A stretch of 64,000 nucleotides of DNA from Amphiura filiformis (taxonomy: Eukaryota; Echinodermata; Ophiuroidea; Amphilepidida; Amphiuridae): assembly GCF_039555335.1 (NCBI RefSeq), contig NC_092628.1, positions 64,241,235 to 64,305,234 on the forward strand, given 5' to 3'. Within the stretch, counting starts at the first letter, position 1, and every line of letters starts with the position of its first letter. Positions 754 through 61,170 of this stretch are shown in pieces. The position numbers were made by a program, and so were the translations under genes. The notes below the pieces were generated by a model that was not told the DNA's origin, made no database searches, and saw only the letters and a list, made by a program, of their open reading frames with translations.

Positions 754-1052
754 TTAAGAACTGAAATTGCTATCACTTCAATGATGGCTAAATGTTTACT
801 TATTATTTCTAACTGCAAACCTAATTCTCCCTGGCAACTTTAATCCATAGTGACCAGGTTGGAACCAGTTTGCTACAATAAAACTGTTGGTGATGGGTTG
901 CTTTCCCCTGATATGGTTCAGTCCACAGTGGGAGCTTGCCTGCATAGCAGGACAATGGTTCAATTAACACCTATGGTGATGATAATGTTTTTTATCTAAA
1001 TGCTTGTTTAACACGTTTCTAATTTTGTCTGCTGAAGTTTTAACTGGTTACT
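754..1052 (+). repeat. Duplicated intron segment, copy 1
   Basis: The first 210 bp are nearly identical to 5367-5577, and similarity continues more loosely to the end of each copy (5656). The two direct copies flank the giant palindrome. The right copy lies about 110 bp upstream of a RAN exon, so this is probably duplicated RAN intron sequence. Confidence 0.85.
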
Positions 1053-1886
1053 ACAAGTTGTGTTTAGTCTACCATTTTTAAGGCAGAATAACACGCATGT
1101 AATAGACTTGCTAATAACATTGATACTTGCCTATGGTTGGTAATTTTCTGACTTTTATCGTGTAAGTTTTAGTGAACCCATTCAAAGAAATTCAACCATT
1201 ACCAAATATGTCAACATTTCCATATTTAACCTAGATCTAATATAATAACCCTTCCTGCATAGGATAATAATTTTGACTTCCAAACCCCCACCCACCCCAA
1301 AGTTACTAACTTAGGCACCAAGGGTATTAATGTTCAGCTTCTTTCATGCAAACCAAACCTAGTATACACTAGGCTGAGCCAAAACCCAGAAAATGCTGGT
1401 TTTAACCCAGGTTGCTCCAGGCCAGCCCATATTAGCCCAGGTTGACCCAGAAAGGATTGATTTTCAACCCAGGTTGGCCCAGGCTCCTAGATCACTCTTG
1501 AAAATGAGCCCAGTCTGACCCATGGCAGCCCAGGTTAACCCAGTAAAACCCAGGTTGACCCAGAGAAGATAAGTTTTGCTAGACACAAGCTACTCAACAT
1601 GTCTGGGCCCAGCTACTCTCTTTGTTGTGCAAGTCATAAAAAGTTGATCCATGAGATATTATTGATTGGTATAGATAGGCTATGATCATGCATGGTAACT
1701 TATTAAGGTGAATTCCTCAAATTGTTAATATTTTCATGTGTGTTTGTTTTAAGTTTGTCTGTCCTCTCTATGGTAATGTTTGGATATTTATACCTGACAT
1801 GATTAATTAAGGTGTGTTTACAACTCCCAGTGAGTTGAGGTCTATAATAGAGTATAAGGTAGGCCTATTATGTGCAAGTTTGATAT

Positions 1887-2022
1887 AAAATTGGATCGAT
1901 TGAGCCCATATATTTATTGGTCGAGCTATAAGTTTAAAAATATTGGACGAGACATAGTCGAGTCCAATATGTTAAAACTCATAGCGATACCAATAAATAT
2001 TGGGCGTAAAGTATCCAATTTT
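1887..2022. mobile_element. Hairpin MITE nested in left palindrome arm
   Basis: The ends are AAAATTGGAT and ATCCAATTTT. The two halves, about 60 bp each, pair through most of their length around the centre near 1955 (ATATTGGAC / GTCCAATAT). The right palindrome arm lacks this block, so it inserted after the palindrome formed. A second short hairpin follows at 2026-2081 (TTATTATGTTTTG / CAAAACATAATAA). Confidence 0.7.
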
Positions 2023-3637
2023 ATCATTATTATGTTTTGGATCCAATATTTTCACACACTTGGATCCATCAAAACATAATAACGTCCCTACTTGGAAACT
2101 GGTTTGGGAGATTCCTTGCTCATTAGAATAAATGTGAATCCCGATGTGAATAGGCCTAGAATTATGGAATGAGTAAACTTGGAATAAATCACTGGAATCC
2201 AACATTTGGTTTTTTTTTAATAAGATATTTATTGATATAGTTATATACAGCACTTAAGGTAGCAATTGTTTGTCTTATCACAATATTTATCTGTTCAAGA
2301 GCCCAATTTTTAACTTCCTGGGTCTATTACTAGAAAACATAACATTGATGTACCGATAGTTTGTGTATTGCTGAAATGTAAATAGTGCCTCACCTAAATT
2401 ATTTAGAAGACATCCAACATTTGAATGGATTTTGCAATTTCCAGTGAATGTTTTGCTGGCAGTCTTGGGAATCTGTTACTGTAGGTCATCAGGAGCACTT
2501 AGAAATTTCTTAGCAAGAGTTGTATAATATTGAATATTAGATGTTTTTGAATTGATATACTTTTAAAGCTTGAACATTTGCACAAACATTAGACCAATTT
2601 GGCATTTGTATACATTAATATTTTCAAAAATAGTGTCCATCTTTTTGCCAATTAAGATAGCCTTACTATTTTGGAGTGTTTTTTGCCATGTCCATAATAT
2701 GAAAATTTGTTAGGTCATCACGCAAAGTTGCTACCAAGGAGTTAACATGTAAGTAATAATAATATGCATTATTATAAAATATTCAGCTTGTAAATGTTAC
2801 TTCTAGCTCATTTGATTCAATCAATGTATTACAATGACCATGGAAGAAAGAGATAACTATTTAATACTTGAAAGTATGATCTAATCAATACAAATCATCA
2901 TTCTGAGTACCTCTGCACACACCAGTACATTGTTATCTTAAGTGTTTTACATGAGTAAGAGCAGTTTTGTATTGATTATTTGCTTGAACTACTTGAATTC
3001 AAAGTTGGTTATAGCTTTGTATATTAATAATTATTGTTTTTAAGTGCCTTTTAATATTGGAGGTAAATTGCCTCTTGAAAAATTCCAGATACATGGATAG
3101 GAGTTTGCTGATTGTAACTTATATATAAATGTCTTTCTATTGAATAAAAGACCTTGGTTATTTTAGGATTATTTATTATTACTGTACTTAAATAATTAGT
3201 AATAATATTATAAACATTACTTATTAGGCCAAAACATAAAGGTTTGTCTCTGGTGTCATCATGGTCATAGGAGATTGGAAATGCAATGTGGTATACATTT
3301 TCAATAATTCAATATTACATTTGATGTGATGATTATGCTGGATGATTTCTTTTTTTTTTTAATTGATAAAAACAAAATGTTTTTCAGCATGATTTTATGA
3401 ATGTTCAGTAATTAACCTATTTTTGTTGGCCTTATTATTATATTATATTATATTATCATTAATTATCAATACTAGTACATGCAGAGGGGAAACAGGGCAA
3501 ACTATTGGTTTGAAATATACGAGTGGATATTCATCTTCAAACATTGCAAAGATGCAAATTTTATAATTGTGCACAGTATTAATTTGCATGTTAACTCCTC
3601 AGTAGCAACTTTTCAAAGTTCAACTAATTTTCTTATA

Positions 3638-3965
3638 AGGCCAAGTAAAAATAAAAACATGCTTAGCGTCCAGGTGTTTTTGAAAAAGGGAAGGAGGATA
3701 TTTTTTTACAAAACTGCTCTAAATACTCATATTTTAATGCCTTATTTTGAGTATTCGGCATTGTGAATGATATCTAAAAATGAAGAGGAGGCACTTTTTA
3801 TTTTGTTTAGGAAGGTAAGCCCCTCCTGTGATCACAAAACTCGTCACAAAAATGTGTCTTATACATTTTCAAGGCTGTATACAAAATTTCAACTTCTCAA
3901 ACATTTTGGAGAAGAAGTTATATAAATAAAAATTTACAAAATAAAAAGAAATTTGAAAAGGAGGA
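3638..3965 (+). repeat. Interspersed repeat, copy A (see 23106)
   Basis: Starts with GGCCAAGTAAAA and AAAACATG, followed by GAGGAGGC blocks and a CCTGTGATCACAAAAC-type block. The same modules occur in the same order at 23106-23455, and shorter pieces occur around 19960-20140. No coding potential and no clear ends, so the class is unknown. It is absent from the corresponding part of the left palindrome arm. Confidence 0.6.
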
Positions 3966-4657
3966 GGGCGGGGACACTAAACTTGTTTGTTTTTTCACTC
4001 AGCCTTATGGACATGGCAAAAACACTCAAAATAGTACGCATATCTTTCACTCTTTTTTATATTGTATGTATAAAATTTAAAATTGGTATCTGCAAAATGT
4101 TTGTGCAAATGTTCAAGCTTAGGTATGGCAATTCAAAAGACATCTAATATTCAATATTTATACAAGTCTCTTGAAAAGACAGTTTCTGAGTGCTCCTGAT
4201 GACTTCCAGCAAAACATTAAATGGTAGTTGCAAAATCAGGCTCAAATGTTGGATGTCTTTCAAATAATTTAGGTGAAGCACCATTTGATAAAATTGTTAG
4301 ATCAGCGATGTACGCAAACTATATCGTACATCGATGAGCTAGCAATTTTAAATGTTGCCTTAAAAAGGTTATTCTCGATGGACAGATACCTATTTGCTGT
4401 ACATAACTATATCAATAAATGTTTTACATTTATAGAAAAACACAGGTTTCCAGTGAATTATTCCAAGTTGACTCATCCCATAATTTTATAATATAATGTG
4501 CAAGCAGGGAGCAGTAAATACACCCGTATTAATTGTGGAAGTATAAATATCCAAACATTACTATAGAGAGGACAGACAAACATAAAACAAACACATATCC
4601 ATGCAACTAAAACAATTTGAGAAATTCACCTTACCATGCATGATCACATAGCCTATC

Positions 4658-4992
4658 TATAGACGAATCTAAATTCACGCATTCCTACACCTGACTAGCA
4701 GCCTTTAGTTGGGTAGCCGTCGGCTACAATGCACTCAAAATGTGAAATGATTCGGCCTTGCCGGAAAATTTAAACTGCATTCCATCACCCGTTTTACACC
4801 TTTCATAATAATCGGATTAACTACACGCGGTATCTATGCTTTGATGTACTTCTCGTCCTTGCATCTTCTCTGGGTGTTAGGCGGCTTTTGTTTGCACAAT
4901 TGGACGCTCAAAACACTAGGTTGGTGCTAGCGGCTACCCAAAGATGTCCGACCAAATCCTGACCATGACTTGGCTCGTTGGATTCGTCTATA
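4658..4992. mobile_element. Non-autonomous TIR element nested in right palindrome arm
   Basis: The ends are TATAGACGAATC and GATTCGTCTATA, and the outermost TATA may be target duplication. The block interrupts sequence that is contiguous in the left palindrome arm at about 1678, which proves a later insertion. GGGTAGCCG motifs lie just inside both ends. No transposase is seen. Confidence 0.75.
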
Positions 4993-5366
4993 CCAATCAA
5001 TAATATCTCATGGATCAACTTTTTATGACTTGCACAACAAAGAGAGTAGCTGGGCCCAGACATGTTGGGTAGCTTGTGTCTACCAAAACTTATCTTCTCT
5101 GGGTCAACCTGGGTTTTACTGGGTTAACCTGGGCTGCCATGGGTCAGACTGGGCTCATTTTCAAGAGTGATCTAGGAGCCTGGGCCAACCTGGGTTGAAA
5201 ATCAATCCTTTCTGGGCCAACCTGGGCTAATATGGGCTGGTCTGGAGCAACCTGGGTTAAAACCAGCATTTTCTGGGTTTTGGCTCAGCCTAGTGTATAG
5301 TGCTTAAAATATGGTGATGGTGATTTTCTGCAATAACTTGTAAATCAAGAGATGCACACTTAAAGA

Positions 5367-5656
5367 TTAAGAACTGAAATTGCTATCACTTCAATACTGG
5401 CTAAATGTTTACTTATTATTTCTACCTGCAAACCTAATTCTCCCTGGCAACTTTAATCCATAGTGACCAGGTTGGAACCAGTTTGCTACAATAAAACTGT
5501 TGGTGATGGGTTGCTTTCCCTGATATGGTTCAGTCCACAGTGGGAGCTTGCCTGCATAGCAGAACAAAGTTTCAATTGATAATATTTTATCTATGCTTGT
5601 TTAAATAATTTCTAATTACAATCTAATTTCAACTGTTGAGGTTATTAACTGATTAC
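5367..5656 (+). repeat. Duplicated intron segment, copy 2
   Basis: Direct repeat partner of 754-1052. It lies about 110 bp upstream of a RAN exon acceptor, so it is probably the original copy. Confidence 0.85.
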
Positions 5657-13523: not shown

Positions 13524-13689
13524 AAACACTGCATTACGCTTGGTTATGCGTGCAATATTTCCGCGATACGCGCTATCACTTACGCGTACTCGCTCCACCT
13601 TGAAGTAAACAACTTAAAATATTTGTGCCAAAAATGATATTTTCTCTTTAAATTCTCTTTAAATCGGACTATTTTCTGGTAATAGAATA

Positions 13690-13850
13690 GAAATAAAGGG
13701 TGCAGCATTATCCTTTACACGCAAATAATGTGTCCTCGGCAGTTAAAACGTTTAAATAATGGGTTTGGCTGCGCCTCACCCATTATTTACGTTTTTACTG
13801 CCTCGGACACATTATTTGCATGTAAAGGATAATGCATTACCCTTTATTTC
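13690..13850. repeat. Near-perfect hairpin element
   Basis: The arms run from GAAATAAAGGGT to ACCCTTTATTTC and pair over about 70 bp (for example ATTATCCTTTACA, GCAAATAATGTGTCC, AAATAATGGGT). The loop is about 13 nt near 13770. Similar CCCATTATT pieces occur at 13258-13335, so a larger composite foldback is possible. Confidence 0.8.
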
Positions 13851-13903
13851 TTAAATATATCATAACACTGGTGCCATGAGGCCCACAAGTGCCCTGCAAG
13901 GTG

Positions 13904-22004: not shown

Positions 22005-22799
22005 GGGGCTGTGCAATAATTATGAGCCCAAATGGCTCGCCAAAATCGTTTGCCCCCCCTCTCGGCCCGCCAAAATTGCTTGCCCCCCACCCTGGGCCCC
22101 CACCCCCATCTTGCCCGCCAAAAAATCTTCCCCCCCCCCCTTGTACATGCCAAATTTTTGGGATCCCAATTTGCAAGTCTATATACATGTTGCGAGCGCA
22201 GCGAGCAGGAAAATTTGCATATTTAAGCGTTTCTGTACGGTTTTCCTAAGCCTTTTTAGAGCGTTTTGCCACCCCAAGAATGCGGTGCCAAAAATCGCTT
22301 GCCCCCCCCTTTCGGCTTGCCAAAATTGCTTGCCCCCCAGTTTCGGCTCGCCCCCAATATTTTGCCAGGGGATGGTCCATACAATTACCCCCTCCCCCCA
22401 TGTTGACACCTGGGTTTTGGCCACCTCATATTTGGCCATTTTAGCCCCAAAAGTGCCAATTTTTCGCACTTCGCACGAATTTATCCACCCCCTTTTCACC
22501 ATATTTCACCAGTTTAGCTTCAATATGGCAAATTTTTTCCCGTGCTTCGCGCACATTTGTAACATAAACTCTTTATCTGTCGCCAAAAGGTGATGGATTC
22601 CCTATACTATTAAAAGAAATTTTTCCAACCTCACCCCCCATGTCAAAAAGATATCTACGCCACTGCATGAATATGTGCCAAAAATTGCCCCCCCCCCCTT
22701 CTCGGCTTGCCAAAAATTGCTTGCAATCCCCTTTTGCCAAAAAATTCTTGCCCCGGCCCCCAATTTTGTTTACCTCCACCAGCACCAGGGCTAAGCCCC
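22005..22799 (+). mobile_element. Harbinger-like C-rich element
   Basis: Starts GGGGCTGTGCAATAATTATG and ends AGCCCC, with TTA on both sides (22002-22004, 22800-22802). A 3-bp TNA target site fits PIF/Harbinger. The interior is a series of CGCCAAAATTGCTTGCCCCC-type units and the motif GCGAGCGCAGCGAGCAGG. Inner sequence (about 22360-22670) is related, inverted, to 56041-56440. Proline-rich open frames here are a by-product of C runs. Confidence 0.6.
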
Positions 22800-23105
22800 T
22801 TATTACTATAGTATATTATGATTTATGAAACATGCATGGGGAAATAATAAGAATTCACTTTTTGAAGATACTTATTTCAAATACTCACAAGTCTATCAAA
22901 ATACCGTAGAACAAAGAAATGAATTTTGAAACCGTCATAAAACAAAGTCAAACATAACAATACTCTGTTGAGATGTTTATTTCAATGGATCATAATTTCC
23001 TCATAATACAATATAAGATTTTGAAACCCTTATAAAACAAAGCCAAAAGAAACAAAAGAAACAAAAGAAAACAAAGTCAAATAAATATAAAAAAAGTATA
23101 ATATT

Positions 23106-23455
23106 AGGCCAAGTAAAATAAAAAACATGTTTCACGTCCGGGTTTTCGAAAAAAAGGAGGAAGAGGGGGCTTTTTATTTTCTATTTTTTATCGCAAAATT
23201 AGTGTAAATAAATGATACTTATAGAGCTGTTTTTATAGCGTATAAAATAATGCCTGGAAAAAGGAGGAGGCCCTTTTTTATTTGTTGTTCTGAGAGTTAC
23301 ACCCACTCTAATGATCACAAAACCTTCCGAAAGTGTTTCTTGTATCTTAACAAGGCTATAGAATTAAGCATCCCAACTTCCTAGACATATTTTGAAAAGT
23401 TATAACTGAATTTCAAAAAATAAAAATATATTTGAAGAAACCTCAAAAAAGGAAT
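23106..23455 (+). repeat. Interspersed repeat, copy B
   Basis: Homologous to 3638-3965: GGCCAAGTAAAA, AAAACATG, GGAGGAGGCCC, a GATCACAAAAC block and ACAAGGCTATA-type blocks come in the same order. Non-coding, class unknown. Confidence 0.6.
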
Positions 23456-23647
23456 GTGTTTTTTTAATTTTATTTGGCCTTAATCTAGCTCGTTCACGTA
23501 GCGTTTTCGTTGTCCCACTGGCCTAGATTGCCTGGCGATCGGAGTGTTATCGTCAGAGCACCTCGGACTAGCCTTAATCATGATGAACGCATTGCGCATT
23601 CACTTGAACCACAGTCCACAGATGGTTTGGACGGACACATTCAATAA

Positions 23648-24134
23648 GGGGTGGTGCAGTAATTATGTGTACCCCCGGGTGGGGGGGTGAATTATAGGGG
23701 GCAAAGATTTTTTGGCAGGCCAAAAGGGGGGGGCAAGCATTTTTTGGCAGGTCGAAAGGGGGGTCAAGCGATTTTTGGCAGGTCGAAAGGGGGGGGGAAG
23801 CAATTTTTGGCACAGATATTTTGGGCACCGTTTCTATATTACGCCCTAAAAGGCGAGGAAAGCGTTCTGAACACGTTCAAATATGCAAAATTTCCTGCTC
23901 GCTGCGCTCGCATTATATGTTAAGACAATTTAAGGTTTTAAATTCGGGTTCCCCAAAATCTGGCATGTGTAAAGGGGGGGCAAAGATTTTTCGCACGTCA
24001 AAAGGGGGGGCAAAGGTTTTTGGCACGTCGAAAGGGGGGCAAAGGTTTTTGGCACGGCCAAAGGGGGCAAGCGATTTTTGGCAGACCATTTTGAGAATTC
24101 ACCCCCGGGGAACACATAATTATTGCACCACCCC
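23648..24134 (-). mobile_element. Harbinger-like G-rich element (inverted partner)
   Basis: Starts GGGGTGGTGCAGTAATTATG and ends CATAATTATTGCACCACCCC. It is flanked by TAA on both sides (23645-23647, 24135-24137). The interior repeats GGGGGGCAAGCATTTTTTGG-like units and contains CCTGCTCGCTGCGCTCG. It is the same family as 22005-22799 but reversed, so the two form a loose inverted pair between BUD23 and DNAJC30. Confidence 0.75.
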
Positions 24135-30880: not shown

Positions 30881-33580
30881 TAGGTACAAAGTTCATATAT
30901 AAACTGTTTTGGTGACCCTTTTTCAGTTGCAGACTCCTGCCACTACCAACATTTCCTATTTCAGCTCCGTTCAGTTCTTATGCCCAAATTTTACAGCATC
31001 TTCGATGAAGTTATATTTTCATGCCCAAATAACACCAATTTTGAGCAGTTTTAAGCAGATTTAATTTCTCAATATCCTATTTTGGAAGAGAATCTCGGTT
31101 CCCAAGCCTTTCGAGAGGGGGAGAAAATCATTTCCCCAAGACGCTTTATAAGATAAGATCAGCATACTTTATTAAAAAGGTTTCTAAGTGGCCCCTACCA
31201 GGTCAGCATTTGTCCTGCGACCCACATGACAAGATTACAATTCACATCTCTATGCTAACAAAATTCTTAAGCTCCCTTAACTCAATGTAGTGTAGCTAGC
31301 TACCACATCAACCCATTTGCTCCTGGGCCATACAAAATGAAAGCCTTTGACCAGCTAAATACCAGTTTCATTCAGAGCAGAAGTACATGTAGATCAAGTT
31401 TGGATGAATACCATAACAATATATTAGAACTCGCTGTACCCTCAGTGTGCTGCTAAAGCCTGGATAACGTTTGGAAGGTCAAAAATAGGCAATTATACAA
31501 ATTATGGGAAAACCTAATATTCTGGTTACAACTATGACCAAGGGGATGCTAATCACAACCAATACCAAAACACAATAATCAGCATGTCATATTCATTTCA
31601 ATCTTATGTTTTATTTTACAGCATAATTACACCTATGATCTAAATGTTCCATTAAATACATCTCAACGTGAGCTTTTAACATATCCAATTTACATTAGTG
31701 TACAATTTATAAATTAAATAGTAAAGAAATAAAACAACAATATCAACATTTGAGTTGATAAGCAGCAATGAAATATATTGGTAACAGAACTGAAAACAAA
31801 GTTGTTACCAATTTATGTTCCTGTACACTTTTTACTGTTGCAGTACCAATTGTAGTATTCACAATCACATGTTTTGGAAACATGCAAAATATTATGTAGC
31901 TTTGGAAAAACAAACAATATCAACATCTAGTGTAACTTTTGACTATCACATAAGCACAAGCAGGGTACAAATACAAAATGAAATTAATAAATGGGTTGCT
32001 CGTTTGCAATTCTGTTAAATCTACAAATGTTACAAGGATCATTTGTGGATTTTTTTGTACAGAGGATCGTGAAAAGGTTTCCAAAGTTACCCTTAATATG
32101 ATCTAGGACTGCAAAATTACAAAACTTCCCTCAAAATTACAAAACTTCCCTCCTCTTGTAACAAATAATTAAATCAATCCTTTCTTGATTTATACTGTAA
32201 GCTGGTATGTTCTGAAAAAAACATGTGCAGAATGTTTGTTAAAAGCAAATTTCTGCTGGATTCTGTATCTTTGGGTGTTCTAAAAATGTTCAAAATTAGC
32301 ATGCCATTTTTCTAACCCAAGATGGTGGCCAATATAGATATAACCCAAGATGGTGGCCAATATAGATATAACAATTCAACATGGTCAGATCAAATTATAC
32401 AATATCACTGATTGTCTTTGACCTTTTGCCTATTTTATCCTCTGACTCATTAACCAATCGTATTGAAGATATGTGACCATGACTTTTTGATTAGAGAAGG
32501 AATATGAAATATTGTATATCTTGATTAGATCATGTTTAATTTGTTACATGCATACTGTGGAAGGTAGGCATGTTGTCTATGGGGGACGACGATAAGTGTG
32601 GGGTACATTAGAAAACTAAAAAATAGCACATACAGCACGAGCGTACAAAAAAGAGTTTGCTAGTATACAAATATTAACCGTCTATGAGTGTGATGGTCGA
32701 AAGCTGATTACAAGGTGAAAGATGGATTGTTCCATTCCACGAGCCGGAACGGCGAGTGGAATGGAACAATACATCTTTTACCTTGTGATTAGATTTCGAC
32801 CATTACACAAATTTAAGACAGTTAATATTTGTTTAATATCACTCGTACATAAATTCTATTACTAAATACAATTTAAGGTAGGAAATACATTTTTTCATCA
32901 ACATAACACCATGCTTTGCCGTGATATACTTCACATTTTGGGGTCCACCCCATAACTAAATCGGCGAGTACAAGAGTCCGCGCACGGCTTGGCGCAGGCG
33001 CACTACGGCAAAGCACATGATGGTAAAAACTATCACACGGAGAGGCTGATGGTAAAAATGATAAATGGTAATCAACCAATGAACTGTCTAGAATTTATGT
33101 ATGAGTGATATAATAAGCGCTGGTAAGTTGAGCGCTCCGTGTATGCTCAGATGAGCGATGTCGCCAAGCCCCAACACATTACTGGGCTCAGCTGAATTAA
33201 AGTATGCTTCTAGAGCACAGGCATGGAACATTCATAAGCAGGGTAGTGAGACTTCCGATTTAAATCTGAATTAGGACTTTTTTATTTTTATTTTCAGCTC
33301 TTTTTCTGCACTTGCTCTGTACAAAAGTGTAGGAGCTTACCAAGTTCTTCACTAATTTTAGACTCTTCATACCTCTTTTCATAATTAGATTGCACTTTTT
33401 ATATGGACCATATTTACCATGACAAATTCAAACACATTCGACACCAATGAATAATGCATATATATAAATTGATTTCAAAATTGAATGGCTTAGCAGAAAT
33501 ACATCTCCATTTGCTGCGGTGTATGATGGCCTGCCTGTGGTATGCAGGAGTCCACTCATTAACACTGCATGCCCTTCAGT
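30881..33580. other. Intergenic stretch, little structure
   Basis: Contains a 28-bp unit (TAACCCAAGATGGTGGCCAA and 8 more bases) repeated twice in tandem at 32313-32370, and the hairpin at 32669-32830. Otherwise AT-rich with no coding frame of any known family. Confidence 0.5.
32669..32830. mobile_element. Hairpin MITE of about 160 bp
   Basis: AAATATTAACCGTCT pairs with a diverged right end, and the inner arms pair strongly: ATTGTTCCATTCCAC / GTGGAATGGAACAAT, TACAAGGTGAAAGATG / CATCTTTTACCTTGT, GATGGTCGAAA / TTTCGACCAT. The loop is near 32748. Similar outer pieces reach 33110 (TATGAGTGATATAATAAGCG), so it may be part of a larger foldback. Confidence 0.7.
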
Positions 33581-37024: not shown

Positions 37025-39330
37025 ATGACCCATCATAGTGCCAATGAGAAAATAGGTCACATAACAGTGTTGCCTGAAAGTATTGTAAAATCTCTGAAAA
37101 GTGTTTCCAACATATAACAGCATTTGTAATCTTTGTTTGGAGGCAACATTTGGTCAGCATTTTTAGGTTATCTGTACATTTGCCAATTTGTGCCCCCCCC
37201 CCCCATTTTGAAAAGCTGGCACTGCCACTGTCTGTTTGAAATACTGATGAATTTGCACAAGAAAATATCCTGATGGTATTACGCAGTATTACATGCACAT
37301 TTAGAAAGTTTGGCTTTAGTATAGAAAACACTTTTATTGTTATTAAAATAACATTATGTTAGTATGTATTGTGCCAAGTTTTCAAGCATGTTTTTACCCT
37401 TTCATATAACTCGACATGTAAACGTTTTCTATAAAACGTTTTATGTTTGCCGAGTTAGTATCGGGATTGTATATCGGGTTCACATTTCGCTGACAATCAA
37501 ATAACATGAATCAATTATATCATACATTTTATATTCAATTGATTCTGTTAATATTAAGTTATTCTCTTACATTCAAATACAAAATCAATTTAAAAACTGA
37601 AGATAATGGACACATGGCACACAAAATACATTGTTTTTAAATCAGCTTTTAACATAATATTAAGATTTGGCGATCTCTTCTTTTAGACCACCTAAGCCAT
37701 AAAAGCTTAAAATTACAAATTCATCAAATTAAACTTTTGCATCAAGGTTAAACATGTTTTTAGCTATACAAACATACCTTTTGAACAAGCTTCATTTACG
37801 CTAGCTTTCATGTATTTTCAATCATGCACGTTTGACATCTTTTTACTGCATCATGAAATTCTGCATTTATTTAAGATGACAAATTTCTCGAAAATTTTGA
37901 CGTATTTTTCTGACAAAACAAGCTTCATTTACGCTAGCTTTCATGTATTTTCAATCATGCACGTTTGACATCTTTTTACTGCATCATGAAATTCTGCATT
38001 TATTTAAGATGACAAATTTCTCGAAAATTTTGATGTATTTTTCTGACAAAATTCCCACATTTCTCAAAATTTTTACAACTTTCCACTCATCTGATCACCT
38101 TTTCATATGACGAAAGTGATCCTGATTTTAAGAAGGTATGTTTCATGATATCCAATTATTTTTAAATTGTTTTTTGAGACGAAAACTTCAAAAAGTTGTT
38201 TTAACCTTGTCTTTATCCCATATAATTGCCCTCATTTATAGAGCCCTGCGCTCCCTCCAATACTCTAACAATACTTCGAAGTATTAGGCAGCTCTTTAAC
38301 CTTGATGCAAAGGTAATAATTTAGTCCCTGTGGTCTAAAGGAAAATATCGCCAAAATTTCAGAAGATTGATGAAAAAAAAACTTCAAAAAAAGTAAAAGT
38401 AAAAAGAGCGAAAGCCCAAACATATATAAATAATTAATCAAATCAATCAGCAGTTAATCAGAAATATCAATCAACTGGAAGAGACGGTTGTAGCAGGTAG
38501 CAGTATTGTAATTTGCTTGACAGCTGACACTGATGGCAATGCTACAGGAATTGAAACCTGTGTACATGTAATCAAAACATCCCAACCTTTTCACAAGATG
38601 AATTTGGATAATTTGAAGTAAATCATATCACATATTATCATTACATTACATAATTGTACACTGTAGGTAAATATGGCCCATCCTAATTTGAGTAACAATA
38701 AGATTTACCAGTAAGATGTGACAAATGCTTACTACATAAAGCAAAATATCCTTTGGAAATCAGGTAAGCAGCACTAATTTCCAAAGGATTTTGGCTCATA
38801 TCAGTAGTAGTTGACAATTGCATTGGCCAATCAACACTCAACAGGTGTTAAAATATTGTGCTGCATGTAATTTTTACAGATAGAAAATCATTGGCACGTG
38901 TTGATGATTGATTTATAATTTGATCCTCATGACAAGAGTGGGCCAATATACTTTAATATTATAAAATTTATGTTAAGTCATACCACTGATTATATTAAGA
39001 CATGTTAGAATACACAGGACACATGCATATTACAATCAAATACAACATATATTGTGAGAATAAAATAGTTGACATCATAAATCCCTGATTGATTAGAATA
39101 TAAATTTGCATATAAATATCTAAGCAATCAGTTAAGTAGTGAGCAGTTCATTGAACACACTCATCCTTAAATTTGTCAGCAATTTAATATGGTTAATGGG
39201 TTGTTTGCTGACAAAGAGTTTTACACAGACCTTGAAATAAGTGGAATTACAGTATAAATCGGACAGCATTTTTCCTTTTAACTTTTTCATGTTGTGACAT
39301 TTTGACATTACTTGGTACTCTAGGTTGGTA
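37025..39330. other. Intergenic stretch with a 132-bp tandem duplication
   Basis: Besides the duplication at 37785-38049 there is a small hairpin at 38746-38790 (TCCTTTGGAAAT / ATTTCCAAAGGA). No coding frames of known family. Confidence 0.5.
37785..38049 (+). repeat. 132-bp tandem duplication
   Basis: The unit beginning AACAAGCTTCATTTACGC repeats twice head to tail (37785 and 37917). Only one difference is seen (GACG in the first, GATG in the second), so the duplication is recent or an assembly artefact. Confidence 0.92.
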
Positions 39331-39525
39331 AACATGAGTAGGATTTAATTTTTCCCTAGAGAAGTCCTTTTCAGAGGGCTGAGCTTTCGGTACTCTAGTG
39401 AGTGCCATCTTCAAAGTAACTAGCCATGTCATCTTACTCGGATAATGTCACTCTCGCTAGAGTACCAATAGGTCAGCCCTCTGAAAAAGGACTTCTCTAG
39501 TGAGAGATTAAATCCTACTCATGTT
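39331..39525. mobile_element. Hairpin MITE
   Basis: Starts AACATGAGTAGGATTTAA and ends with the inverse. Inner arms AGAAGTCCTTTTCAGAGGGC and GGTACTCTAG also invert. The centre is near 39430. Confidence 0.8.
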
Positions 39526-41002: not shown

Positions 41003-41332
41003 GGGTACACCGAAGTGTGACGTCATGAAATTTATATTTTTGCATTTCAGCATTTTCATGACCATATTTCAGTTGAACATGATGAAAAACACCCACAGTC
41101 CAAATTTGGTGGGAATCGGATCATGATATTGGCCTGGTTTGGAACCAGGCCAATTTACACTGATTTCAATGGGGCTAATTAGGTATTCATGCGGCCATAT
41201 CTCGGGCCCTCATGATCCGATTCCCACCAAATTTGGACTGTGGATGTTTTTCATCATGTTCTACTGAAATATGGTCATGAAAATGCTGAAATGCAAAAAA
41301 AAGTGTTTTGTGACGTCATCACTTCGGTACTC
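41003..41332. mobile_element. Long-arm palindromic element downstream of VPS37
   Basis: GGTACACCGAAGTGTGACGT at the left and its inverse at the right. Arms of about 130 bp include CCAAATTTGGTGGGAATCGG / CCGATTCCCACCAAATTTGG. The element ends about 150 bp past the VPS37 stop, so it may lie in the 3' UTR. Confidence 0.85.
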
Positions 41333-44870: not shown

Positions 44871-45845
44871 CTACCGGGTATGTCACAACAAATTTTCCCA
44901 TCCATTTAATAGCCCCTGGTTCATTTAAAATAGCCCCTGGTTCCTTGAAAAACCCTACATATGTATGAACCAGGGGCTATTTTTTCTCAAAGTAGCCTCC
45001 TGGTCCAGCGCTTATTTCCAGCCTGGCTCTGGCTACATGATATAATACTTCTTGCAGATTAATTTGTTATACCATTCAGCAAATTACTTCAGCGGTGTTC
45101 ATCTGCTGTCTGATTATCGCGTTAAAAGAACTAGGTCACACGTTGCTACACTGCTTGACCAGCGAATGAGGTGCCGATGATGATGTGATGTCAATAATGA
45201 TGTGATTCTACTAGCCAATCAGAACCACACTTCCATATACCGTACGCATAAACTGCACCAAATTGGCAGACCGCTGAAGTTCTCTGCTGAAAACTATAGG
45301 CCTAGATAGCAAAAATATCTTGAAATTTTACGTTCTGTACACCAGTATGAAATTACACAATTGTAGCACATCATGAATGCATAACTTGCAAGTTTACGCA
45401 AAATCGGAATCAATTGAAATTTTGGAAATAAGCCTTTTTCATGGATATCTACTGAAAATCATGAAATGTCATGAAAAGAGGATGCTCAGTCAGTGTCAGT
45501 GATGCTAGCCTGCTACTACATGTACTAGTACACGATCCAGAATATCATCATGCATGCATGTCAGAAATTATAGTGGGAATTCGAATTGAATGAACATATT
45601 TTTCAATAGCGTGATGATTTTTGCGTACACTGCGCGATGTATTAGCATTGTATCCAAGGTTGTGTGTTCACGTTGTAGTTTGAAATATGTGATATACGAT
45701 CGCGGTTGGATTGAGTATGTACAGCTAATGAAAGCTGCGTTCATTCAATTGGAATTCTTACTACTGTATAAATAATATTTTGTTCTGGGACTGATATAGG
45801 TATGCTAGGTGAATTCAAATTTGCCATCAACAACTGCATCATTTT
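44871..45845. other. Upstream flank or first intron of VPS37
   Basis: A small inverted repeat of CCCCTGGTTC units occupies 44905-44990, related in layout to 26471-26787. The rest (to 45845) is non-coding to my eye. No clear VPS37 first exon or promoter could be placed. Confidence 0.4.
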
Positions 45846-47710
45846 ATATATGGTCATTTTCACGGTAAAGGGTGTAACTTTTGATTTTTAGGGTCAAAAT
45901 TTCAAACCACTTAAATATATTTCTGTTTACTGAAATCATGCATAGAAGCAACTTAATTTCAAGTAAAATAATGTTTCAAGGCTTAAACCTTTTGATTTCT
46001 AATAAAAAATTTGACATTTGCATAACATTTTGGTTAAAATCTAAGAAAAAATTTATTTTACATAACCTCAGAAAATTTTGACATGAAAGCTGGAATACAT
46101 GTGAAATTCCATTCCAAAGTAAGTCAACAGATATAAGTTAAATTTTATACCATGTTTTGCTATGTTTGTAATTGCAGTTTTGAAAATTTTTAACATCAAG
46201 TGTCATTTACAATGGAAATTTCCAAACCTTAAACATATTTTTTAAGTTTTAATTGGGTTCCTAAAATAATTTGAATGTCTAACTTCATGTACAAATACTA
46301 CTTGATGAAAGGAACCTCCCAGCCAAGTTTCACAGAAATTGGAGTTATTTTTAAAATTGGCAATTCAAGCGATTTGTGTTTCGGAGGCTTCAGTTAACAA
46401 CACAGGTGATCATAAAAGTAAAATATTTAGCTAACTACTACAAGTTGACATAAAAAATAGGTAAAAAATATCACAATTACCAATTTTCATGCTTTGCTTC
46501 TAAGTATTGAATTTCAGTTGTGACAAAAATTAAATTATCACAGCAAGTCATTTTTTTGTTTCGGAGGCTTCATGTTAACAATTGTTAAACGTTGCAGAAG
46601 TAGTTTTTTGAAAACAACAGTGTTGGGATCATCTAAGCTGTTATTTTCTTGTGTGTATTGAATCAATGATTCTATGCGGCAGATATTGTAGATTTATCAC
46701 ACATTAATTTTTTCACCCATTTGTTAAGTATGGTGTTTTTTGCATGTGAAGCCTCCGAAACAGGCTTTTTAAGGTATCAGTATATTTTTCAAACATTAAC
46801 CATAATGTCAATTTTTTTAAATTTATGACATTCTGCACATATCAAGTAATAATTACAATGCAGATATCAGTATGAAACACACCAATTTAGATATGCATAG
46901 ATGATAATTAAGTTTACTGTTGTTTGGAGGCTTCATTTGTTTCGGAGGCTTCAATTGTTAACGGAAAGTTTGTATTGGGTCCCATTTTCAAACGGTGATA
47001 TATATCTCCACGATTTAAAAACATGTGACTTGAGGATCTAGTTTGCTACATTTTAATAAATAGATTGGATGAGCTCTTTTATTTATATTTGCACAAGCTT
47101 GCTGAACAGTTTGTTTCGGAGGCTTCAAAAAGTTAACGGAAAAAACGGCTATTTGAAGTCAAGATTTTATAAAAATTTTAAAAGCTTGCAAATCGGCTAA
47201 TTTTTGTTACCCATTTCAAGTTAAGATAACAACTGTTATGAATCAAGAAGAAGTGAAGAAATAACCAAGAATTATGAACCAAAGCTACACCCACAAAGTT
47301 TGTTAACAATTGTTAACGGAAAATGAAGCCTCGAAGCGATAAATATCGAAGTCCGGTTCTCAAAAATACAGGGCCGTTCACAATTAAATCTAATGTGGCA
47401 GTGTTTACTGAACATATGACTGTACTTTCAGGATAAGAAAAATTATCCATGAACTAACTGAAGAAAACACAGGGTTTTACAAAAATGTTACTGTTTTTAT
47501 AGTTTTTCAAAATGGCAATATTAAGTACATTTAAGCCTGCTAAAACTGAACGCAGTAACTCCCAAAGCTGATTATGCTACCCAAGGTAGCTGCTAACTAG
47601 ATGACTTATGTGGCCAAAAATTATGGAATTCTGTGGCTTTATTAGAACACTACGGATTAAAATGTTAAAAATCCAAAGTTACACCCTTTACCGTGAAAAT
47701 GACCATATAT
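45846..47710. mobile_element. 1.9-kb TIR element with a spaced 15-mer array
   Basis: ATATATGGTCATTTTCACGG opens a terminal repeat of about 44 bp (through GTAAAGGGTGTAACTTT) that is inverted with few changes at 47668-47710. Inside, GTTTCGGAGGCTTC or its inverse occurs at 46378, 46558, 46748 (inverse), 46935 and 47112, with partial copies at 46922 and 47325 (inverse). Most are followed within 0-6 nt by GTTAAC, often GTTAACGG. Full copies are 176-190 bp apart. The sequence between them is not repeated. There is no transposase or long frame. It fits a non-autonomous DNA transposon with unusual internal repeats; superfamily unknown. Confidence 0.85.
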
Positions 47711-48014
47711 CAAATTAAAGCCCTTGAATAAAGAAAGCCAAATTAACTGTAACTGAAAACCTTTTGTTATAGCACTTTCCGTAGCAAAGTTACATCTTGT
47801 CAATACTGACTTTCATCAAAAAAATTCAGCTAGCAAAATTCCCCAAAACAGCATTTCGGTGATGTTTCTAGATCTTAGTCTCAGGTTGATAGCAGAGCTC
47901 TTTTTTAATGGAACTGCTAGATCAATATCCCTCTAAAATTCCATGTGCGAGTGACTTATCACCATAAAAAATCATATATTTGGGTTTAAGTGAAGTATAG
48001 ACAACATATTTATT

Positions 48015-53147: not shown

Positions 53148-53700
53148 ACGGTCCGAGTATTATAGTCCCACCTGTTTTTCAGGCTAAAATTTTTCACAAT
53201 TGTATTTTTAATATGAAAATTGATAATTTGTATTCATGTCATACTCTATTAATGATTTCAAATTGAATTGAATTTGAATGCATTTTGATATGACCCTAGA
53301 TGCTAGGATCATGCATGGTTGACCTAAAAAAAAAATTCAAGATGTTTTGTATTTTTAATATGAAAATTGATAATTTGTATTCATGTCATACTCTATAATG
53401 ATTTAAAATTGCATTGAATTTGAATACATTTTGATATCATTAATAGAGTATGACATGAATACAAAATATCAATTTTCATATAATTAAAAATACAAAACAT
53501 CTTGATTTTTTGTTTGTTTAGGTCAACCATGAATGATCCTATCATCCTAGCATCTAGGTCTAGGTCCAGGGACACTCCAAAACCGAAAAAATAAACAACT
53601 TTAAAAAAAATTTTTTTTTTTACAATTTCTGGAATTTTTCGAAAAATGGGGGGTGGGACTATACTCGAACGTGGGACTATACTCGGACGAATGCGGTAAT
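53148..53700. mobile_element. Composite foldback element
   Basis: CGGTCCGAGTATTATAGTCC at the left is answered by inverted GGGACTATACTCGGACG at the right (about 53673-53692). The inside is itself an inverted repeat: TATTTTTAATATGAAAATTG at 53202 and again near 53350, both inverted at about 53470-53500. The module GGTCAACCATGAATGATCC at 53521 is shared with the hAT-like MITE at 48015-48260, so that family probably inserted here and was duplicated. Confidence 0.7.
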
Positions 53701-53774
53701 AGCCTACAAAGAAAATTTCTAAATAAACTGAGAGTAAAATGGCAATAAAACAAACTCAAGAGGTGGCACGCCCT

Positions 53775-54030
53775 AAAATGGTGTAGGAAAACATTAGAAA
53801 TATGTTTAAATATGAAAAATTTCCTGCTCGCTGCGCTGCGCTCGGTTTGGTCCCCCAAAATCTTAGTGGGGGGCCGAAAGATTTTGGGGAACATCAAAAG
53901 GGGGGGCACGGATTTTTTTGGCACGTCACTAGGGGGAGCGGCAAATATAGTATGACACGGTCAAAGCAGGGAAGTCATGGTCAAAGGGGCAGACCACTGA
54001 GAATTCACCACCCGGGGTAACTCTTATCAC
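53775..54030 (-). repeat. Fragment of the C/G-rich Harbinger-like family
   Basis: Shares TTTCCTGCTCGCTGCGCT, AAAGGGGGGGCACGGATTTT-like units and GAGAATTCACC with 23648-24134. Truncated at the left. Confidence 0.65.
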
Positions 54031-54384: not shown

Positions 54385-55835
54385 CTGGTAGTCTGTGACT
54401 CTGTCTGTGCCTCTGTCTGTCTGTCTGTCTGTCCGCCTATTTTCTCGGACACTAGGGGTCCCACGTTCCTCAAACTTGGTGGGTGGGTGCAGCTTGGCAT
54501 GAGGAAGAACAAGTTTATATTTTTAAAGGTCAAAGGTCAAGGACAGGGTCAAGTTCAATTGAAGTCTAATTTCAAACACATTAAATAGCAAATCTAGCCA
54601 TGCCATTGTGTTGACCTTGGACTATCAAACAAAAGTTTCCACAGTGACCTTTTTGTCAGACCTACGGTTAAGAGGTCATAGGTCAAGAAAGGTACAAATT
54701 TCGAATTGCCCCTATGTAGCTCAAACTTAGTGGGTGGGTGAACCTTGGACTATCAAATAAAAGTTTCCACGGTGACCTTTTCGTCAAACCTACGGTTATG
54801 AGGTCATAGGTCAAAAAAGATAAAAATTTCAAATTGCCTCTATGGAGCTCAAACTTGGTGGGTGGGTGGACCTTGGACTAACAAACAATAGTTTCCACAG
54901 TGACCTTTTCTTTAGACCTACGGTGAAGAGGTCATAAGTCAAAAAGGTAAAAATTTCAAATTGCCCCGATGGAACTCAAACTTGGTGGGTGAGTGGGTCT
55001 TGGACTAACAAACAAAAGTTTCCACGGTGATCTTTTCTTCAGACCTACAGTCAGAGATCCCAGTCAAAGAGTACACCCTGATTTTGAGATCTGCAAAAGC
55101 CAATAACCATGACAGCCGAGAACCGCGAAATACGGGTAACCGCCTAGTCTTACTATAATTCACCGGATCTCTGTCTGTCTGTCCGCATCTTTTCTCGGAG
55201 ACTGGGGTCGCACGTTCCTCAAACTTGGTGGGTGGGTGCAGCTTGGTATGAGGAAGAACCAGTTTATATTTTTAAGGTCAAAGGTCAACGACCGGGTCAA
55301 GTCCAATTGAAGTCTAATTTCAAATCGCTCCTATGGAGCTCAAACTTGGTTGGTGTGTTGACCTTGGACGAACAAATAAAAGTTTCCTCAGTGACCTTTT
55401 CGTCAGACCTACGGTTAAGAGGTCATAGGTCAAAAAAGGGAAACATTTCAAATTGCCTCTATGGAGCTCAAACTTGGTGGGTGAGTGGACCTTGGACTGA
55501 CAAACAAAAGTTTCCATGGTGACCTTTTTGTCAGACCTACGGTTAAGAGGTCATAGGTCAAAAAACATACAAATTTCAAATTGCTCATATAATGGAGCTC
55601 AAACTTTGTGGGTGGGTGTAACTTTGGCCAAGGAAGCTCAGGTTTGCGTTTGTTAGGTCATCCGTGGTCAAATTTCACATTGAGGGCGAAAGTCAGGTCA
55701 AATTGCAAAAAGCTACAACTGAGCTCAGCTGGAGGAAAGTGATCCCAGCCAAAGGACACACCCTGATTTTGAGATCTGCAAAAGGCAATAACCATGATAG
55801 CCGAAAACCGCGAAATACGGGTAACCGCCTAGTTT
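54385..55835 (+). repeat. Two-level tandem repeat rich in AGGTCA direct repeats
   Basis: Units of about 128 bp (CTCAAACTTGGTGGGTGGGT, CCTTGGACTA, GTTTCCACGGTGACCTTTT, AGACCTACGGTTAAGAGGTC) repeat at 54732, 54861, 54985 and 55352, 55481, 55609. The whole block is duplicated: 54410-55137 and 55165-55835 both start with CTGTCTGTC and TTTTCTCGGA and end CGCGAAATACGGGTAACCGC then CTAG. Each unit carries AGGTCATAGGTCA or AGGTCAAAGGTCA. No stable reading frame runs through it. Confidence 0.9.
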
Positions 55836-56040: not shown

Positions 56041-56440
56041 AAGCAGTGGAGGCGTAGATTTTTTTGACATTGATGGGGGATGGGGTTGGAAAAATTTTGC
56101 CATTTTGAAGCTAGACTGATGAAATATGGTGCAAACGTGGAATATGTTGCAAACGTGGTGCAAACGTGGAATAAATATGCGCAAAAAATTTGCACTTTTG
56201 GGGTTATGGCCAAATATAAGGTTAATTGGGTCAGAAACCCACATACAGGCCTCATTTAACATTGGGGCCGGGATGATTGTATGGACCATCCCCCTGGCAA
56301 AATATTGGGGAAATTTATCACCCCCCCCCCATCCCCCGGGATCTACGCTTATGCGAAAAGTAACCCCTCTGGCAATAACATTAACATTGGCAAAATTTGA
56401 TCTGAGCCTACGCGATGCTCTTTTAGGTTAGGGCCGGGGG
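56041..56440 (+). repeat. Repeat related (inverted) to 22360-22670
   Basis: GCAGTGGAGGCGTAGAT, GGTTGGAAAAATTT, GAAGCTAGACTGATGAAATA, TGCACTTTTGGGG and GGACCATCCCCCTGGCAAAA match the reverse complement of 22360-22670 in order. It extends the same C/G-run repeat family. Confidence 0.8.
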
Positions 56441-60360: not shown

Positions 60361-60844
60361 ATATCCCTCATTAATAGCCTATATTCTCGTTCATTAATTG
60401 GTTAAACGAGTATCATGTGACCAAAAATAGTTTTGCTATTTTGCAAACTTGTTAAAAAGCCGATTGAGGAGGGAACGGGGTACTATTCAAAGTACTATCT
60501 CCCGGGGAAATAGTTTTACTATCTCCCTCTGAGCGAGTCCCGAGCGCGTATGACCTCATAACCGCGTCGCAGTTCCTAGTGGTCAGTGCAACTTGCCACA
60601 TACACGGGATATCAGTACCGGTTCCGGGGTATTAATGTGTAGCAATTCGTTTTGTCTTGCGAAGCACACAAGCAGCACAGAAGTGCAGCTAAAATACGGC
60701 GGTTTAATGGCATAAATCTGAGTTACATCAGGACCAAAACAAAGCAAGGCCAGCGTAGCCTTGACTAGGCCTAGCCTACATTTATGCCTAGGCCTATGCC
60801 TTGTGTTTAATGAACAAAGAATATATTAATGAAGGATATAAAAC
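60361..60844. other. CpG-bearing insert splitting the minisatellite
   Basis: Locally GC-richer (for example CCCGAGCGCGTATGACC and CCGGTTCCGGGG). Contains a GGCCTAGCCTAC / TAGGCCTAGCC palindromic run near 60765-60800. No coding frame recognised. Confidence 0.45.
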
Positions 60845-61027
60845 AAATATTTACTGCTCTAAATTCGGGATCTGGTGGAATCTATTGGTCCCCTCGGTGA
60901 ACTGGAGACCGTGAGCCTACTATTTTCCCTCGACCTGACGGTCTCGGGAAAATAGTAGGCTCACGGTCTCCAGTTCACCTCGGGGACCAATAGATTCCAC
61001 CAGATCCCTCATGAGCAGTAAATATTT
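60845..61027. repeat. Near-perfect palindrome, arms about 83 bp
   Basis: Starts AAATATTTACTGCTC and ends GAGCAGTAAATATTT. The inner arms, GGGATCTGGTGGAATCTATT through TAGTAGGCTCACGGTCTCCA, pair with only two or three small gaps or mismatches. The loop is about 15 nt (TCGACCTGACGGTCT). Such high arm identity implies recent origin or arm-to-arm gene conversion. Confidence 0.93.
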
Positions 61028-61170
61028 GTATACTATCTTCAGAAGATAGCATTATTAATAATGCGTCTGTTATCACTCCGTATCTTCAGATATAGCATAT
61101 ACAACATGTGTCTATTATCATTAGCACTCCGTATACAACCTATCTTCAGAGAACAACAGCCAATGTGATA

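Follow-up and report, generated by a model that had tools for sequence, protein, structure and literature searches.

Transposons with repeated internal sites are already known, as in the hAT element Hermes, in which putative BED-domain sites of the left end extend out to bp 276 and beyond (PMC10368747). The sites described there consist of a short motif, AAGT, near the tips of the element, five of them within 55 bp at each end, and the authors of that study consider it unlikely that auxiliary internal binding supports transposition (PMC10368747). A different arrangement is found in Tetris, a foldback element of Drosophila virilis, where the whole unit is repeated and the repeats lie in long terminal inverted repeats (TIRs) (PMC4079207). 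Satellite arrays may also be housed in mobile elements: in the oyster, monomers of 160-180 bp are the leading class and make up 33% of the satellitome, while of 11 satellites that were inspected 9 lie mainly inside mobile elements (PMC8268682). Elements of the IS3EU group, which have TA..TA termini, usually produce 6-bp target duplications (PMC10045372). The locus described here, in a 64-kb window (the whole stretch of DNA that was analyzed), carries an evenly spaced row of a short two-box site in the interior of a TIR-bounded element. A comparable internal site array in a transposon was not found in the titles and abstract openings of the open-licence literature, and the motif and TIR strings are absent from the main texts of open-licence papers.

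The element and its ends

Inverted-repeat comparison delimits a 1,875-bp stretch with 50-bp TIRs, 96% complementary, at its two ends (Table 1). The TIR pair encloses all copies of the motif, bearing out the proposal of an earlier, sequence-only reading that the array lies within a TIR element. The termini read ATATATGGTCATTTTCACGG at both sides, and comparison of the ends by hand shows that TA, TATA, and ATATAT are all compatible as the target duplication; because the palindromic ATATAT fits any of the three, the ends do not assign the element to one superfamily. A TA duplication, as in Tc1/mariner, is one of these three readings, the element itself being without a transposase. A 6-bp ATATAT duplication, as in IS3EU/GingerRoot, is another possible reading of the ends (PMC10045372), but on comparison by hand the ends do not show the TA..TA termini together with the 6-bp duplication usual for IS3EU: if the element is taken to start with TATGG or TATATGG, the target is duplicated over 2 bp or not at all. 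A target-duplication table was not found in the accessible part of the Repbase overview (PMC4455052). Assignment as a foldback element was rejected, the TIR being short and the array lying outside the TIRs.

Table 1. Positions in the window of the element ends and of the motif modules
Feature	Position	Strand	Remarks
Left TIR	45841..45890	+	50 nt, pairs at 96% with 47666-47715; the palindromic ATATAT makes the outer limit uncertain
ATATAT, left end	45846..45851	.	Either belongs to the TIR or is a target-site duplication; GGTC from 45852
Module 1	46378..46398	+	GTTTCGGAGGCTTCA then GTTAAC, spacer 0; exact 15-mer 46378-46392
Module 2	46558..46588	+	Motif, 1-bp spacer, GTTAACAATTGTTAA; exact 15-mer 46558-46572
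Module 3	46747..46761	-	Exact inverted motif without adjoining GTTAAC; on the strand of the motif, CTTAAC follows after 18 bp
Partial motif	46921..46935	+	12/15 (3 mismatches); 18-bp tandem duplicate before module 4
Module 4	46939..46964	+	Motif, ATT, GTTAACGG; exact 15-mer 46939-46953
Module 5	47113..47139	+	Motif, AAAA, GTTAACGG; exact 15-mer 47113-47127
Module 6	47302..47335	-	Inverted partial motif and GTTAACAATTGTTAAC 6 bp downstream on the motif strand
Right TIR	47666..47715	-	50 nt, pairs with 45841-45890
ATATAT, right end	47705..47710	.	Counterpart of 45846-45851

The 1,775 bp between the TIRs are without a recognized coding frame. At least 35 residues are encoded in each of 29 frames that overlap the element, the longest stop-to-stop frame lying wholly inside it has 67 residues, and none of 10 of these 29 small frames gave a Pfam match at E ≤ 1. 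The element thus combines TIRs with the lack of transposase coding capacity that characterizes a non-autonomous TIR DNA transposon (a long MITE). From its single copy it looks like a non-coding, non-autonomous DNA transposon of this kind, and it is presumably mobile DNA with relatives; the 64-kb window contains no further copy and, at up to 3 mismatches, no match to an empty insertion site.

Among viral contigs and bacterial genomes, pattern searches with the TIR 21-mer and with a spaced pair of motifs returned no stretches. The 15-mer motif is present in 34 viral stretches, with one match in each, and chance gives a similar order by a rough estimate. A single stretch of a viral contig contains the motif together with GTTAACGG, within an open frame, and one bacterial contig matches a TIR 20-mer, with identity ending after 22 bases; both are attributed to chance. 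No match was obtained when phage records were searched by similarity. Viral, bacterial, and phage searches that are empty or at chance are as expected of an animal transposon.

Repeats of other kinds lie elsewhere in the window. Positions 754-5617 contain an inverted pair (1363-1675 and 4987-5299, 98.7%), between whose arms there is additional inverted similarity, flanked by a direct pair (754-1024 and 5367-5617, 88.6%); the whole resembles a large element of the foldback type that is enclosed in another repeat. Arrays of a ~30-bp unit, in inverted orientation on two sides, occupy 22034-24083, with related pieces (67-70%) at 53768-54017 and 56088-56310, and a 133-bp unit at 37784-38051 is present as one tandem duplication at 99%. 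At least six long imperfect palindromes, 79-86% self-complementary (13689-13851, 32658-32841, 39331-39525, 41009-41328, 53299-53546, and 60830-61041), are perhaps palindromic MITEs. Comparison of six window frames with Pfam gave one DnaJ domain, one reverse transcriptase, which we take to be of the non-LTR type, one Mod(r) domain below the Pfam cut-off, presumably a VPS37-like exon, and three without a match. The one Rfam match at gathering score in the whole window is a tRNA-Pro outside the element. Judged by this content, the window is probably animal nuclear DNA.

The two boxes and their spacing

The motif, TGTTTCGGAGGCTTCA, is present in five exact 15-mer copies, four on the + strand and one on the - strand, and in two partial copies, of which one is also inverted; these numbers and orientations are as first described, and all seven copies lie inside the element. 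The five full copies are in fact identical over 16 bp, with an additional T 5' of the 15-mer. The partial motif of module 6, at 47324-47335, reads TGAAGCCTCGAA on the + strand and is one base short of the motif. When the window was searched at up to 3 mismatches, 6 matches were obtained, 6 of 6 inside the element, as compared with a mean of 0.87 in 100 dinucleotide shuffles, none of which (0/100) had 6. At the same threshold there is no copy in the TIRs. The left TIR edge and the start of the first motif copy are separated by 537 bp, and the last exact and last partial copies end 588 and 380 bp, respectively, from the right TIR edge.

A second box, GTTAAC, follows the motif on the motif strand by 0, 1, 3, or 4 bp in four of the five exact copies, and it also stands 6 bp downstream of the inverted partial copy on that copy's own strand, where it forms part of the 16-bp palindrome GTTAACAATTGTTAAC (47302-47317). 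In five of six modules, one of these being inverted, it therefore lies downstream of the motif at a distance of 0-6 bp. The earlier statement that most copies are followed by GTTAAC(GG) is correct for the hexamer, but the longer form, GTTAACGG, stands beside only two of the five exact copies, and the inverted one of these five is followed only by CTTAAC. Of 20 GTTAAC sites in the window 6 are in the element, as are 3 of 5 TAACGG sites. TAACGG, which is contained in GTTAACGG, is presumably a Myb-type recognition sequence and would fit a Myb-like partner protein.

An extended form of the box, CAATTGTTAACGGAAA, occurs three times, always on the + strand, at 46952, 47127 (81% alike), and 47307, with intervals of 175 and 180 bp. 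In module 6, where the motif is inverted, this extended box (47307-47322) keeps the + orientation that modules 4 and 5 show. Because the asymmetric extension does not follow the motif in its inversion, the motif and the second box thus act as partly independent units, an arrangement that fits two contacts or the remains of a tandem array alike. The pair is not one rigid site, given the distances of 0-6 bp, the absence of one box, and the orientation in module 6.

The gaps between exact copies, measured from start to start or between centers, are 180, 189, 192, and 174 bp (CV 0.045), and the last gap, from module 5 to the inverted partial copy, is ~211 bp by module center. The spacing had been given as 176-190 bp; it is indeed near-constant, but the exact gaps span 174-192 bp and the gap to the inverted partial copy is outside the range. 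Five random sites between the TIRs would be equally regular with P ~6e-5 (200,000 trials; 7e-5 if the sites are non-overlapping), and six modules including the inverted partial copy (CV 0.075) with P 2.6e-5; with a minimum distance of 100 bp imposed between sites, P rises to 3.1e-4 (five sites) and 1.9e-4 (six). It should be noted that all of these tests are post hoc, in that the array was picked for its regular look; they do not include the partial copy at 46921. The window was also screened for recurring words (12- and 14-mers composed of three or more different letters and present four times in 2.5 kb, each gap being 60 or larger). Only two places were returned, the motif array (gap CV 0.033-0.055) and a 128-bp tandem repeat, in agreement with the earlier view of the locus as a constant short site at near-constant spacing. 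The second place, at 54613-55618 (54.5-55.6 kb), is an ordinary tandem repeat in two blocks with 88% and 85% matches.

This regularity bears on an origin of the row by local copying of a short segment, through template switching or gap repair, in which case the even spacing would be coincidental and the sites without function. The 18-bp tandem partial copy at 46921 indicates that the motif has been duplicated locally at least once, and the identity of the five copies is as expected of recent duplicates. However, regular spacing would arise by coincidence with a P of only 6e-5 to 3e-4, and the pairing with GTTAAC recurs at varying short distances, whereas block copying would hold the distance constant. 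We consider local copying unlikely.

Nucleosome repeat lengths span a range that includes 174-192 bp, and the row had also been suggested to be a nucleosome-phased array, that is, a phasing or chromatin-boundary array with the motif, or a factor bound to it, in each linker. The spacing taken by itself fits this suggestion, but the 10-bp periodicity of AA/TT/TA/AT in the array is not above that of shuffles (0.79 of 200 are as high), and the pattern is interrupted by the 18-bp tandem copy and by the last gap. Phasing imposed by a bound protein would still be compatible with the missing dinucleotide periodicity. As an account of the whole row, nucleosome phasing appears very unlikely.

The spacers and a tandem origin

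The five spacers, of 139-157 bp after removal of the boxes, were compared by counts of 7- to 10-mers and by alignment. Shared 7- to 10-mers are not in excess over 300 shuffles in direct or inverted orientation; there are, for example, 17 direct 8-mer pairs as compared with a shuffle mean of 17.0, and fractions of 0.55 (direct) and 0.66 (inverted) of window stretches have as many 8-mer pairs as the spacers. None of 20 global comparisons reached p ≤ 0.05, and 2 of 20 local comparisons did. The first of these is a match between spacers 2 and 5 (46705-46728 and 47198-47225, comprising TAATTTTT, ACCCATTT, and GTTAAG) for which 0 of 200 shuffles were as high, but this match is a short one that does not keep the register of the modules; the second, between spacers 1 and 5 in inverted orientation, has a local p of 0.035, about what 20 tests yield. 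When the GTTAAC boxes and the two flanks were kept, 2 of 42 comparisons were at p ≤ 0.05 (segments b/e, and segments a/e inverted). Within the element, Tandem Repeats Finder (TRF) listed only the 18-bp duplicate.

Word counts and global alignment thus rule out a satellite, or a decayed tandem array with recognizable units, and the initial judgment that the spacers are unrelated and that the locus is not a satellite is upheld by these data and by TRF; a fully saturated tandem array is beyond the reach of the spacer tests. The row might accordingly be the relic of a short tandem array of ~180-bp units in which a protein-bound box remains and the spacers have diverged beyond recognition, much as the CENP-B box stands in the ~171-bp units of alpha satellite. 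The spacing corresponds to the size of satellite monomers such as the oyster 160-180-bp class (PMC8268682), internal tandem repeats of ~220 bp occur in Tetris (PMC4079207), and CAATTGTTAACGGAAA retains one orientation in three successive modules across the motif inversion. These points are to be weighed against the lack of leftover similarity in the word counts and global alignments, the shortness and wrong register of the one strong local match, and the inversion of two motifs, one exact and one partial, an outcome that is not produced by head-to-tail duplication. On balance, a tandem relic, the foremost of the alternatives to a row of binding sites, seems somewhat improbable.

Candidate binding sites and their relation to known systems

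Short identical boxes amid unrelated spacers resemble a row of protein-binding sites, and sites for a transposase or host factor appear to be the most economical reading of the sequence. We therefore favor, tentatively and with a little less than even confidence, a row of candidate sites in the interior of a non-autonomous TIR transposon, as represented by this one copy, at which a protein would bind DNA in a sequence-specific manner. The row would consist of about six two-box sites, GTTTCGGAGGCTTCA with GTTAAC in five of six, ~180 bp apart in the middle of the element, which may be bound by one sequence-specific protein or by a pair. The binder could be a host factor, or else a transposase or accessory protein that an autonomous partner encodes. 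Several bound molecules might then act on the element, in loading, looping of the ends, or control of chromatin or transcription, and because several would act in this way the boxes would be kept while the spacers were free to change. Whereas the boxes, their spacing and orientation, the dissimilar spacers, and the TIRs can be read directly from the element, we infer from them the binding of a protein, its identity, and its effect. A direct role of the motif at the transposon ends is less likely, because the array, unlike typical subterminal sites, begins 537 bp from one end and stops at least 380 bp from the other, and a simple loading role is disfavored by the doubt of the Hermes authors that auxiliary internal binding aids transposition.

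A more specific possibility, which we regard as quite doubtful, is that of a transposon family that keeps an interior array of two-box sites, about one per nucleosome repeat, so that the element would be folded jointly by chromatin and a partner-encoded protein, either to be mobilized or to escape silencing. Should boxes and spacing be conserved among copies of the family, this would be a transposon with nucleosome-spaced cis-acting sites well inside its ends, and it would lend itself naturally to the question of whether chromatin architecture belongs to the mobilization signal. If they do not, the row is a curiosity of one copy.

CENP-B boxes, which are ~17 bp in length, recur in alpha satellite at the monomer length of ~171 bp, and the monomers are clearly related to each other. 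The present row is similar in that a fixed box recurs at an interval near the length of a monomer, but differs in that the spacers around the motif are unrelated; identity of the motif with the CENP-B box itself was rejected, the motif differing by eye from the CENP-B consensus. With Tetris the element shares a non-coding, TIR-bounded structure and internal repetition, with repeats of ~220 bp in Tetris (PMC4079207). Unlike Tetris, however, only ~16-36 bp recur here, outside the TIRs. The resemblance to Hermes lies in a short motif, present in both orientations inside a TIR transposon, with sites that reach the interior (PMC10368747), but the motif of the present element is 16 bp long, is evenly spaced, and occurs only from 537 bp inside.
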